IMG/VR virus record: IMGVR_UViG_3300045999_008214
Coordinates: 1 to 24,484 of that record
DNA: 24,484 nucleotides
Reading direction: 5' to 3' (one strand)
Origin: a virus
Shown here: positions 8,681-16,541 of the stretch, piece after piece
Layout: every line of letters starts with the position of its first letter
Numbering within the stretch: the stretch's first letter is position 1
Notes under the pieces: generated by a model
Seen by the model: the letters and a program-made list of their open reading frames with translations, nothing else
What the model was told of the DNA's origin: nothing
The model's database searches: none
Translations under genes and position numbers: made by a program

Positions 8681-8848
8681 TCTCGCTCGCCGGGAGGACT
8701 GAGCATTGCTCTCCTTCCCCTCCTCTGACTCCAGCCAACCCCTCTTCCTCTCAGCCTCTGCCTTTCGGAAGTCAGCGCTGGAGTGGTATCTCCTCCGGTA
8801 GCTGAGTGCCTTGCACGCTCGCTGCTTGTCTGGGTCAGAGTAGGGCAT
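8615..8848 (-). CDS. small basic protein downstream of the integrase
   Basis: The product is 77 residues on the minus strand. Its ATG lies 14 bases inside the 3' end of the integrase gene, so it is probably co-transcribed and coupled to it. It is rich in Arg/Lys, with the start MPYSDPDKQRACKALSYRRRY resembling small basic phage proteins of unknown role, and a helical charged middle. Its last about 66 bases overlap the 3' end of the lysozyme gene on the other strand. A role in DNA binding or recombination is only suggested by charge and position. I see nothing else in 8681-8834. Confidence 0.55.
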   Translation of the reverse strand: MPYSDPDKQRACKALSYRRRYHSSADFRKAEAERKRGWLESEEGKESNAQSSRRARLRKKRELPSPKQEALCFPSAD

Positions 8849-9977
8849 CCGGTGTGAGGTAGTGATTCACCGTCGTTGCCGTGGTCGTGTGACCCAAAGC
8901 AGCGGAGGCAGCACGCACCGCTGCCAGACGAGCAGCAACGGCATCCTGCGTCAGTCGTGCGAGGTGGTCGGCATACAGACCCCGCAGTCGGTGCAGAGGT
9001 TTCTTCGCTGCCGGGGAGAATGGTCTCACCAACTTGGGCAGTGCTCGCTCAAACCACTCGCTTCGGTTTGCCGTCGAGGGTTGGACGACAGGCATGTCAT
9101 TCGACATCGATCGCAGCGCATCGGCAAGGGCAGGGTGCAGGATCAGCGCCGAGTACCTCTTCCCGGTCTTCGTGAAGAACTGCTCCTCGGGTCGATCCCT
9201 CAACTCGATGTAGTCACCACCGTCCCGGGTCACCATCCAGTCTGCACGGCATGCGGAGATCTCAGCAGAGCGCAGTCCTGCAAACCGTGCGAGACCAATT
9301 GCCAGCCACTCCGGTGACCCGGGTGGCAGCGACTCCCACCATGCCAGCAGTGCAGCGTCATCAGCGTCGGAGGGTGGTGCTGAAACCGTGGGCAACCATT
9401 GGATGCTGTTGATGTCCTTGGGCACGATGATGCCCTTGTCGAGGTATGCTGGACGCAGGGAGGGGATCGTGATCGATGCCGCTGCTCTGACCGCTGCGTT
9501 GATCGCTGCGTTCCCTGGCTGGCGACGGGAGAGGTCGAGTGTGCCACCCTGCTTCTTGCTCATGTAGTCCCTCCAGAGCGCGGGAGAGAGGTCCGACAGT
9601 CTCACCACCTTCAACTCCTTGCCCCACGCTTCACGCACGATGCTGCGGAGTCGCTGGACGTTGTCCACTGCGGTGCGCTCACCCGCTCGCTTCGGCATGT
9701 CGAGGTAGCACTTCGCGAGATCCTCCAGCGTTTCCACTGAGCGCTTCATCTGCTTCACACCCTGGTCAAGGTACTCCCGCGCCAGCCGCTTTGCTGATGT
9801 GAGGTCGGCAGTGTCGAGTGAGCGATCCACCCGGCAGTGCTGGGACCGGGAGCGCAACCTCCACACTCCGTTGTTCATCACCAGCGGGATCTTCCTGCCC
9901 TGGTGCAGCACCCAGAGGTTCTTTTTCGGCGCTGCATTTAGGTCACTGTGGGTCAAATTTAGGTCAGTCTTTTTCAT
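8835..9977 (-). CDS. int: tyrosine recombinase, phage integrase
   Basis: The product is 380 residues from ATG 9977 (a TTG at 10001 would add eight). It catalyses recombination between attP and the host attB. The catalytic set is visible: Arg236 in FAGLRSAE, a Lys near 270-273 in FTKTGKRY, His329 and Arg332 in LHRLRG, His363 in LGHTT and nucleophile Tyr373 in NHYL. An N-terminal arm-binding-type region (1-75) and a core-binding region (about 80-180) precede the catalytic domain (about 200-380). Coding starts about 70 bases from a tRNA-Leu fragment, the normal arrangement for an integrase beside its attP. Codons 5-14 (DLNLTHSDLN) coincide with DNA repeats that look like arm sites. Confidence 0.95.
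   Translation of the reverse strand: MKKTDLNLTHSDLNAAPKKNLWVLHQGRKIPLVMNNGVWRLRSRSQHCRVDRSLDTADLTSAKRLAREYLDQGVKQMKRSVETLEDLAKCYLDMPKRAGERTAVDNVQRLRSIVREAWGKELKVVRLSDLSPALWRDYMSKKQGGTLDLSRRQPGNAAINAAVRAAASITIPSLRPAYLDKGIIVPKDINSIQWLPTVSAPPSDADDAALLAWWESLPPGSPEWLAIGLARFAGLRSAEISACRADWMVTRDGGDYIELRDRPEEQFFTKTGKRYSALILHPALADALRSMSNDMPVVQPSTANRSEWFERALPKLVRPFSPAAKKPLHRLRGLYADHLARLTQDAVAARLAAVRAASAALGHTTTATTVNHYLTPDALL
9936..9966. repeat. left attP arm-type repeats (AGGTCA sites) inside int
   Basis: ATTTAGGTCA occurs at 9936-9945 and 9957-9966, with a third GGTCA at 9951-9955 between them. The GGTCA cores start at 9941, 9951 and 9962, about one DNA turn apart, so all face the same side. The same decamer recurs at 10143-10152 on the other side of the tRNA fragment, in the same direction. 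This resembles arm-type integrase sites flanking an attP core. The repeats lie within the integrase N-terminal codons. Confidence 0.6.
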
Positions 9978-9990
9978 CTCGGATGAATAG

Positions 9991-10023
9991 CTCACGATCA
10001 ACTCACGATCAACTCAGGATCCA
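9991..10023. repeat. three tandem 11-bp repeats upstream of int
   Basis: CTCACGATCAA is repeated exactly at 9991-10001 and 10002-10012, with a third diverged copy (CTCAGGATCCA) at 10013-10023. The repeats lie between the integrase ATG and the tRNA fragment. The unit of 11 bp is close to one helical turn, suggesting cooperative protein binding (excisionase, integrase or a repressor of int). Confidence 0.6.
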
Positions 10024-14533: not shown

Positions 14534-14898
14534 CCAGCATCACCTTCACCATCCCGCTGCCTCCCCATGAGGTCCGCAACAATGCCCGGTGCCACTACCG
14601 GGTGAAGGCGGCGAAGATCAAGTTCTACCGTCGCCTTGCAATGTACGCAGCGAGAGAAGCGGCTGGCTGGAAGAAACCGATGTGGCTCAAGGCATCCGCC
14701 AAGGTCGTCGCATTCTTCCCCACTGCCCAGCGCATGGACCCCACCAACCTTCTCGATGCCCTGAAGGGACCATTCGATGGTCTCGAAGACGCAGGGATCA
14801 TCGTCAACGACAAGAACCTTTGGCCGGAACGTCCGGTCCTACACACCAAGCAAACCAACCCACGAATCGAAATCACCATCACTGAAGAGACATTATGA
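14530..14898 (+). CDS. rusA: RusA-family Holliday junction resolvase
   Basis: The product is 122 residues, the standard length. RusA enzymes cut four-way DNA junctions as dimers, resolving recombination and replication intermediates before packaging. The active-site pattern is intact: Asp70 and Asn73 in RMDPTNL, Asp76, Lys79, Asp83, Asp87 and the closing Asn93-Asp94 in IIVND; the N-terminus has the usual strand (ITFTIPLPP). It sits between the exonuclease and the replication initiator, as in lambdoid phages. The start overlaps the previous stop and follows GGGAGGGG. Confidence 0.92.
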   Translation: MTSITFTIPLPPHEVRNNARCHYRVKAAKIKFYRRLAMYAAREAAGWKKPMWLKASAKVVAFFPTAQRMDPTNLLDALKGPFDGLEDAGIIVNDKNLWPERPVLHTKQTNPRIEITITEETL

Positions 14899-15275
14899 GC
14901 AAAGCACCATACGAGCACAAAGAAGGCAGGGGCAGCATGTTCCAGAACACCCGAAAGGAGAAGGACACCCACCCCGACTGGAGAGGGGACATCATGATCA
15001 ACGGCACCGTCATGGAGATCTGCTCTTGGTGGAACGAGGAGAAGGGGTTCCACTCTCTCTCGATCACCGAGAAGAAACCATTCACCCCGGGTGAGACCCA
15101 GCAGAGGTCAGACCGTCAGGAGCAGCGCCAGTCAGCGCCTCCGATGCGCCAGGAGCGTCAGGACGGTTCCAGAAGGTCAGAGTATCGGGAGAACAGTCAG
15201 ACCCGCTCAGCGCCTCCTAAACGCGAAACGATGGACACGGTGTTCACCTCTGACTCGGAGGACATCCCATTTTGA
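14895..15275 (+). CDS. SSB-like single-strand DNA-binding protein with a DIPF tail
   Basis: The product is 126 residues. The first about 60 residues (GRGSMFQNTRKEKDTHPDWRGDIMINGTVMEICSWW, then GFHSLSITEK) resemble the small DUF736-type beta domain, which I take as OB-like. A long polar linker rich in Gln, Arg, Ser and Pro follows (65-112, containing two SAPP units). The end is acidic with a hydrophobic tip (DSEDIPF), the hallmark of bacterial SSB proteins, where it recruits repair and replication enzymes. This combination points to an SSB substitute for phage recombination and replication. The final codons overlap the TTG start of the next gene. Confidence 0.72.
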   Translation: MSKAPYEHKEGRGSMFQNTRKEKDTHPDWRGDIMINGTVMEICSWWNEEKGFHSLSITEKKPFTPGETQQRSDRQEQRQSAPPMRQERQDGSRRSEYRENSQTRSAPPKRETMDTVFTSDSEDIPF

Positions 15276-15988
15276 GCGAAAAAACCAAAGATGCACCAGC
15301 GTTCGACTTCTTCCCCGAGCGCTGGTTGGCGGGAGTCGCCACCCTTTCTGACGCAGAACAGATCAGTTTTCTGCGACTTTTGTGTCACCAATGGCTCAAG
15401 AGTGACGACGGACTTCCTGATGATGGAGCGATCCTCAAACGTCTCGCTGGGAAGGGTGTCACCACCCCGGTCCTCGACAAGTTCCCAGTCGGTCCAGATG
15501 GAGCGAGACGCAACGCAAGGCTGGAAGACATTAGGATCCAGCAGCGTCAGCGTATCGCTAAGCGACGGGAAGGTGCGGCGAAAACTAACGAAAAGCGATG
15601 GGCTAAGCCTGTCGCTGAGCGACTCGCTAGCGACATCGATAGCGACATCAAAGCGACATCGACAGCGAGTCGCCACCACCCACCACCCACCCCAAGTACC
15701 TCTACCGAGGTACAGTCGCTCACGCTCCCGTTCGACTCGGAAGAGTTCGCGACGGCATGGGAACAGTGGACCCGGCACCGCAGGGAGAAGCGGAAACCTC
15801 TCACCCCAACCTCAGTCACCCTCCAGTTCAAAACCCTGAAGGACATCGGTGAGGTCAGATCAATCGCAGCAATCAACTCATCGATCGCAAATGGCTACAC
15901 CGGAATCTTCGAAACCAAATCACACAATGCACATCTCAACGGCACTCCACGAAATGACTCTCTCAACGCCAAAGGTCGCTACTCCTGA
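15272..15988 (+). CDS. replication initiator, lambda O-like with N-terminal DUF1376 domain
   Basis: The product is 238 residues from TTG 15272 (TTGA overlap). The N-terminus has the DUF1376 pattern: FDFFPERWLAGVATLSDAEQISFLRLLCHQW, then GLPDDGAILKRLAG, a winged-helix type DNA-binding domain. The C-terminal part (about 155-215, AWEQWTRHRREKRKPLT then INSSIANGYTGIF) is the conserved end found in such phage proteins, thought to contact the helicase or loader. The linker between them (about 110-150) is low complexity and is encoded by a striking set of DNA repeats that may be the origin. A DnaC-like loader follows, giving the O-P arrangement of lambda. Confidence 0.85.
   Translation: MSEKTKDAPAFDFFPERWLAGVATLSDAEQISFLRLLCHQWLKSDDGLPDDGAILKRLAGKGVTTPVLDKFPVGPDGARRNARLEDIRIQQRQRIAKRREGAAKTNEKRWAKPVAERLASDIDSDIKATSTASRHHPPPTPSTSTEVQSLTLPFDSEEFATAWEQWTRHRREKRKPLTPTSVTLQFKTLKDIGEVRSIAAINSSIANGYTGIFETKSHNAHLNGTPRNDSLNAKGRYS
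15555..15720. repeat. candidate replication origin: iterons and inverted repeats in the initiator gene
   Basis: AGCGACATC occurs at 15629-15637, 15641-15649 and 15652-15660, spaced by 12 and 11 bp. These are enclosed by a perfect 10-bp inverted repeat, GCGACTCGCT (15619-15628) and AGCGAGTCGC (15664-15673). More copies of the AGCGAC core, in both orientations, lie around it: 15561-15566, 15611-15616 (inverted), 15618-15623 and 15715-15720 (inverted). There are also small hairpins TCGCT-A-AGCGA (15555-15565) and GTACCTC-TACC-GAGGTAC (15696-15713). Lambda carries its origin as iterons inside the O gene in the same relative place; this is the basis for the call. Confidence 0.62.
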
Positions 15989-16541
15989 CCAGATCATGGA
16001 CGCATCCCGCAAGTGGGGATGGACGGCATACCACCGGGGACTCAAGGGTGTCCTCCCTGCCGCAATCGAGTTCCGTGAAGCAGTCCTCAGTCGGTCACCC
16101 AACAAACGGTGGCTCACCCTGCTGGGTCCATCGGGAGTTGGGAAGACTCACCTCCTCAAGCAACTGTTCGCTGACCTCAGTCGGACGATGAGGATCAAGA
16201 CCTCAACCGGGTGGAGGGGCGCTGAGTGTGCTCACATCATCCCGGCAGTGGACCTTCAGGACTACCGGGCACCCAGAGACTTCGCTCACTACGACCTGAT
16301 CTACGTCGAGGACATTGGTGCTGGGGCAGATGACCGGGCGGGATCCGGTGCAGTGCTCCGCAGCAGGGTCGCAGAACTGCTCCAGCTTCGCTCGGGTCGG
16401 TGGACGATGCTCGATGCCAACCTCACCGTCCAACAGGTCTCTGAGCGGCTCGATGGACGCATCGCATCCCGGCTCAAGCGGGACGGATCATGGTTGGTGG
16501 AGATCCCTTTGGAGGTGCCTGACTTCTGGTGGCAAAAATAA
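15927..16541 (+). CDS. DnaC-like AAA+ ATPase, helicase loader
   Basis: The product is 204 residues from ATG 15927 (ATG 15954 is possible; the frame is open further upstream within the initiator gene). Walker A is GPSGVGKTH at 67-75, a Walker B-like segment is YDLIYVEDIG at 122-131, and the DnaC-type ending MLDANLTVQQVSERLDGRIASRLKRDG at 161-187 contains the likely Arg finger. Such proteins load the host replicative helicase at the origin. It directly follows, and overlaps, the initiator gene, as P follows O in lambda. No N-terminal helicase-binding domain like that of E. coli DnaC is obvious. Confidence 0.85.
   Translation: MHISTALHEMTLSTPKVATPDQIMDASRKWGWTAYHRGLKGVLPAAIEFREAVLSRSPNKRWLTLLGPSGVGKTHLLKQLFADLSRTMRIKTSTGWRGAECAHIIPAVDLQDYRAPRDFAHYDLIYVEDIGAGADDRAGSGAVLRSRVAELLQLRSGRWTMLDANLTVQQVSERLDGRIASRLKRDGSWLVEIPLEVPDFWWQK

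Follow-up and report, generated by a model that had tools for sequence, protein, structure and literature searches.

The DNA that encodes the linker between the two domains of a phage replication initiator is very probably a replication origin of the lambda type, placed within the phage's own initiator gene. The gene lies in a 24,484-nucleotide stretch of viral DNA that we analysed as a whole (the window). This reading draws on the repeats in the linker DNA, their excess over what coding requires, a two-part layout found across the family, an association between the iterons and the initiator's N-domain, and the gene context. The two-part site recurs in dozens of related phage genes, its letters changing from one to the next and its spacing staying fixed.

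The initiator and its gene neighbourhood

The initiator gene (15272..15988, plus strand) begins at a TTG start preceded by GGAGGA and encodes 238 amino acids, arranged as a DUF1376-type N-domain, a linker and an O-like C-domain. Pfam lists DUF1376, which is present in many phages and prophages, as a family of unknown function. The N-domain (about residues 9-95) matches Pfam DUF1376 (PF07120) with E 4e-4 and 21.2 bits; because this is below the gathering score of 30.1, we call the domain divergent or DUF1376-type and do not file it as a member. PHROG 9327 (primosomal protein), which also matches clear DUF1376 proteins, matches it with E 2e-6. The C-domain (about residues 153-219) matches the O-like PHROG 678 with E 5e-11 and our own C-domain HMM with E 8e-23, and it contains the W..W...R..KP.T...SIANGY.GLF region that is conserved in the O-like C-domain. 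The sequence-only reading had described a DUF1376 protein that is not a lambda O homologue; the first part of that description holds for the N-domain, and the second does not extend to the C-domain, which is shared with O-type initiators.

In the predicted structure of the initiator, two domains are modelled with confidence and the linker is poorly ordered (residues ~121-156, pLDDT about 50-60). A Foldseek search with this model matched DUF1376 models and proteins, a result that is partly circular because the alignment behind the prediction contained DUF1376 relatives; a fold search of the PDB gave no useful match. Searches of phage records for relatives of the region at the DNA level, and of IMG/VR for close protein relatives of the initiator, gave none. 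From its sequence, the protein seems to be a distant member among the DUF1376 phage initiators.

The neighbouring genes form a replication module. A single-stranded DNA-binding protein gene (14895..15275, plus strand; PHROG 18154, E 3e-8) lies immediately 5′ of the initiator gene, which overlaps its stop codon, and a DnaC-like helicase loader gene (15849..16541, plus strand; PHROG 3277, E 6e-7; PHROG 50, E 1e-6) overlaps the initiator gene at the other side. A loader adjoining the initiator is what is expected for a lambda-type origin. A loader 62% identical to this one is encoded at L012:3625-4546, where the upstream gene is an unrelated 117-residue open reading frame without a repeat cluster; there, the loader is paired with a different partner. 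Elsewhere in the window, the protein encoded at positions 8835-10001 (minus strand) belongs to the integrase family (PHROG 1, E 2e-12) and marginally matches the telomere resolvase catalytic domain (E 0.05).

Linker repeats and coding expectation

Five AGCGA units form a chain on the plus strand of the linker DNA (15618..15668; starts at 15618, 15629, 15641, 15652 and 15664), with spacings of 11, 12, 11 and 12 bp. The middle three extend to AGCGACATC, with exact copies at 15629, 15641 and 15652 (12 and 11 bp apart), and these copies are enclosed by the arms of a perfect 10-bp inverted repeat, GCGACTCGCT/AGCGAGTCGC (left arm 15619..15628, plus strand; right arm 15664..15673, minus strand). There are four further copies of AGCGAC, at 15561(+), 15611(-), 15618(+) and 15715(-), and this hexamer makes the densest 6-mer cluster in the 24-kb window, with 7 occurrences in 160 bp. 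Outlying iteron-like sites occupy 15555..15616 in both orientations (TCGCT at 15555, AGCGAC at 15561, AGCGAT at 15594-15599 and GTCGCT at 15611), and the inverted AGCGAC copy at 15715..15720 (minus strand) lies 3′ of the A/C tract described below. The sequence-only reading had reported three direct AGCGACATC repeats 11-12 bp apart within a perfect 10-bp inverted repeat, with four more AGCGAC cores in both orientations, and had placed the cluster in the linker between the two domains. The repeats were located exactly, the cores were recovered, and the linker position is borne out by the domain profiles and by the predicted structure, in which the linker is unstructured; with five regularly spaced units in three reading frames, the cluster is in fact stronger than had been claimed.

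Such repeats could simply reflect a low-complexity protein linker, in which Ser-Asp-Ile and His-Pro-Thr repeats have expanded by slippage and are kept since the linker is unconstrained; disorder is indeed predicted for this linker, and linkers of low complexity are common. However, the 11- and 7-bp units are out of codon phase and use all frames. Specifically, the five AGCGA units fall in frames 1, 0, 0, 2 and 2 of the initiator gene, so that Ser-Asp-Ile codon repetition explains just two of them. The enclosing inverted repeat, which the earlier suggestion set apart from codon repetition, is weaker when taken alone: 10-bp inverted pairs reach p=0.07 against synonymous shuffles.

The excess of repeats also persists when the gene is compared with synonymous-codon shuffles that keep both the protein and its codon usage. 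The gene has 9 direct 9-mer pairs where 1.2 are expected (p=0.0005) and 4 inverted 9-mer pairs where 0.4 are expected (p about 0.01). In 3000 shuffles, no more than 3 units ever fell in a row at 11-12 bp spacing, and the window has no other chain of five. The GC skew does not switch clearly at the repeat site.

The A/C-only tract behind the iterons

Directly behind the iterons is a tract free of G and T, CCACCACCCACCACCCACCCCAA (15673..15695, plus strand), which has a 7-bp period, is the longest A/C-only run in the window and is a candidate opening or helicase-entry site; it was absent from the sequence-only reading. Against synonymous shuffles, the tract has a lag-7 signal (p=0.010) and an excess of A and C (p=0.016), and the initiator gene is significant at lag 11 (p 0.005) as well as lag 7 (p 0.010), with the 11-bp block first and the 7-bp block after it. 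The window thus has what we define here as the DUF1376 origin layout, 11-bp iterons followed by 7-bp A/C repeats, and its tract occupies the position that the 7-bp A/C repeats have in DUF1376 relatives. Further 3′ is a hairpin with a perfect 7-bp stem, GTACCTC-TACC-GAGGTAC (15696..15713), for which we have no evidence of a tie to the origin.

The window tract is GC-rich (about 70%), unlike the A-rich A/C tracts of DUF1376 relatives, and so is not an adjacent AT-rich opening tract. The high GC content of the window tract suggests that the A/C tract may be conserved for its strand asymmetry and not for ease of melting. However, A/C richness alone mostly stays within coding expectation: it is significant against synonymous shuffles in just 2 of 76 DUF1376 relatives, and the significant signal is the 7-bp periodicity. 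We tentatively consider that the 7-bp A/C block could be a new origin element, although we lean against it: conservation would then lie not in AT-richness but in a nearly G/T-free strand that does not pair with itself and would either stay unstructured for helicase loading or offer the initiator an ordered array of single-strand binding sites with 7-nt pitch.

A two-part layout across initiator genes

To survey the family, we used 103 non-redundant initiator genes from IMG/VR and phage records, the window's own included, with 76 DUF1376 initiator genes and 26 with other N-domains as groups and a threshold of p<=0.05 against synonymous shuffles. Comparison with homologous genes had been proposed as a check of the origin, and repeats in excess of coding expectation are indeed found in 52 of the 76 DUF1376 genes (compared to 3 of 48 genes downstream of them) and in 25 of the 26 other initiators (1 of 23 downstream genes); about a third of the DUF1376 genes have no significant excess. 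Where the signal is strong, the repeat peak generally falls between the two domains. The lag spectrum of the 76 DUF1376 genes peaks at 7 bp (404 vs 44 expected) and 11 bp (350 vs 43), giving two main series of 7-14-21 and 11-22-33 bp, whereas the genes with other N-domains show lags of 10, 11, 15, 20, 22 and 44 and none of 7. A significant 7-bp block is present in 51/76 DUF1376 genes and 0/26 of the others, which makes this signal specific to genes with a DUF1376 N-domain. This block has a mean composition of 57% A, 29% C, 7% G and 7% T. In all 29 DUF1376 genes significant for both blocks, the 11-bp block precedes the 7-bp block, although the best 11-bp block is sometimes in the N-domain coding region and not in the linker.

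A second set, of prophage genes, was drawn by taxonomy from 299 genomes, with the addition of six Achromobacter genes picked by sequence pattern. It again peaks at 7 (73 vs 22) and 11 (70 vs 22); one member, L206, has masked bases that create a small artefact at all lags, and this locus is to be ignored. In five Achromobacter/Bordetella-like genes (L111, L112, L124, L127 and L190), AACAGSYGTTGAACAGGTGTTGAAC, which resembles the linker iterons, occurs inside the N-domain coding region (gene bases about 175-201).

Conservation at fourfold-degenerate codons bears further on whether the repeats merely follow from the protein. Where the residue is the same, relatives are identical at 95% of such codons in the linker repeats and at 79% in the domains, with the repeats ahead in 68 of 71 comparisons that are not fully independent of each other. 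This better conservation in the repeats than elsewhere, together with the phase and shuffle results, largely refutes the idea that the repeats are a by-product of a low-complexity linker, which we now consider very unlikely.

The repeats might instead have no part in an origin and serve to regulate operon transcription, as binding sites for the initiator or some other regulator. Clustered direct and inverted sites are typical of operators too, and plasmid iterons often serve as autoregulatory sites as well. But this site is in the middle of a gene, between the two initiator domains and beside a second, strand-asymmetric repeat block, and the downstream genes lack such clusters; a purely regulatory role is therefore very unlikely indeed.

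Iteron letters and the initiator's N-domain

The iteron letters vary between phages and the 11-bp spacing is constant: letter classes among relatives include CGTTCAACGGA, GCAATGCGAAC, AACCCACTGGG, AGCGAACGCTC and others, with AGCGACATC in the window. Among 31 genes, iteron similarity correlates with the identity of the N-domain once the C-domain is controlled for (partial r 0.32, p 0.001), whereas controlling for the N-domain leaves no correlation with the identity of the C-domain (partial r 0.01, p 0.37); the permutation test behind these values is uncorrected for phylogeny. This association across relatives suggests that the iterons are binding sites of the N-domain.

A single type of C-domain stands behind several N-domains, including Phage_rep_O (Gifsy-2), HTH_36 (other phages) and others unnamed in Pfam. 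One unnamed N-domain, which starts MAGDWIKM, is joined to this C-domain in L081, L065 and their relatives, and linker repeats are present there too. An O-type N-domain on the same C-domain is encoded at L003:4341-5171 (minus strand), with TTACGGAAAACTGTAAC-type linker repeats; that phage and the window both encode a PHROG 3657 protein. Exchange domain by domain, one option raised from the sequence at the outset, fits these results: the C-domain is homologous to that of Gifsy-2 gpO and PHROG 678 and is combined with several N-domains, and the iterons follow the N-domain. The joining of different N-domains to one C-domain within the linker could also suggest that the repeats are a hot spot promoting N-domain swaps between phages, but the repeat letters vary from phage to phage in step with the N-domain and so offer no common recombination target, and module exchange is equally explained if an N-domain moves together with its binding sites, which leaves the hot spot scarcely credible.

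Relation to known origins

In lambda and the Stx phages, the origin is inside the initiator gene: the middle of O holds 4-6 iterons and an AT-rich tract, and a 19-bp imperfect inverted repeat is required for the lambda iterons (PMC7466680). The window site is similar in its position within the initiator gene, in its iterons followed by a presumed opening tract, and in the loader gene next door. It differs in that its units are about 11.5 bp apart, where lambda has the 19-bp imperfect inverted repeat; its tract is A/C-only with a 7-bp period, where that of lambda is AT-rich; and it has a DUF1376-type N-domain and a DnaC-like loader in place of lambda P. Because the AT-rich tract is missing, we place the site outside the lambda ori family and class it as working like lambda ori. 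Gifsy-2 gpO shares a homologous C-domain, a DnaC-like loader downstream and linker repeats beyond codon expectation, but its N-domain is Phage_rep_O, and its repeats differ from those of the window in their letters and in their spacings, which include 22 bp.

The DUF1376 initiators of Pseudomonas phage UFJF_PfDIW6, Bordetella phage IFTN2 and E. coli Rac (YdaU) have the same two domains as the window protein. In DUF1376 phage initiators, the loader is downstream in most annotated cases, and both the 11-bp iterons and the 7-bp A/C repeats are seen across the family, with iteron letters other than those of the window. YdaU departs from this in having no clear 7-bp block; instead, three TGTTCAAAC-type repeats are found in the linker of E. 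coli K-12 ydaU (L189:4620-5477). An active origin, oriJ, is attributed to the Rac prophage (PMC3945230); the E. coli annotation leaves it unmarked, and the ydaU linker repeats are an obvious candidate for its site.

In the Obolenskvirus phages Brutus and Scipio, the gene for the replication protein has direct repeats of 9-20 bp midway along it, and the authors who described them suggested an origin at that place (PMC10888812, 2024); a DUF1376 protein is encoded by an Obolenskvirus relative (L028). The accessible portion of that proposal concerns one genus and contains neither the 11/7-bp geometry nor a link to DUF1376. Within the literature outside subscription, we found no paper tying DUF1376 to an origin or reporting the 11/7-bp layout, and the papers naming DUF1376, in their accessible portions, include none about phage origins. 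Origins inside initiator genes are thus already known, and the DUF1376 link and the 11/7-bp layout are without found precedent.

A model for the proposed origin and its implications

In the lambda-type origin that we propose, several copies of the initiator would bind the AGCGA iterons through their DUF1376-type N-domains, about one per helix turn and on the same face. In the adjacent A/C-only tract of 7-bp repeats, the duplex would open and present a single strand. The C-domain would recruit the DnaC-like loader encoded by the next gene, and the loader would set the host's replicative helicase at the opened tract. Binding, melting, helicase loading and the start of replication would in this way all take place at the linker site, and the disordered protein linker would let the underlying DNA keep the origin.

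The evidence makes DUF1376, in all likelihood, an initiator N-domain. With this assignment, the origins of dozens of phages and prophages are predicted from sequence alone, and the reading gives a testable place, inside ydaU, for oriJ of the E. coli Rac prophage. The pairing of N-domains with iterons across phages is in addition a natural data set for learning which residues read which letters.
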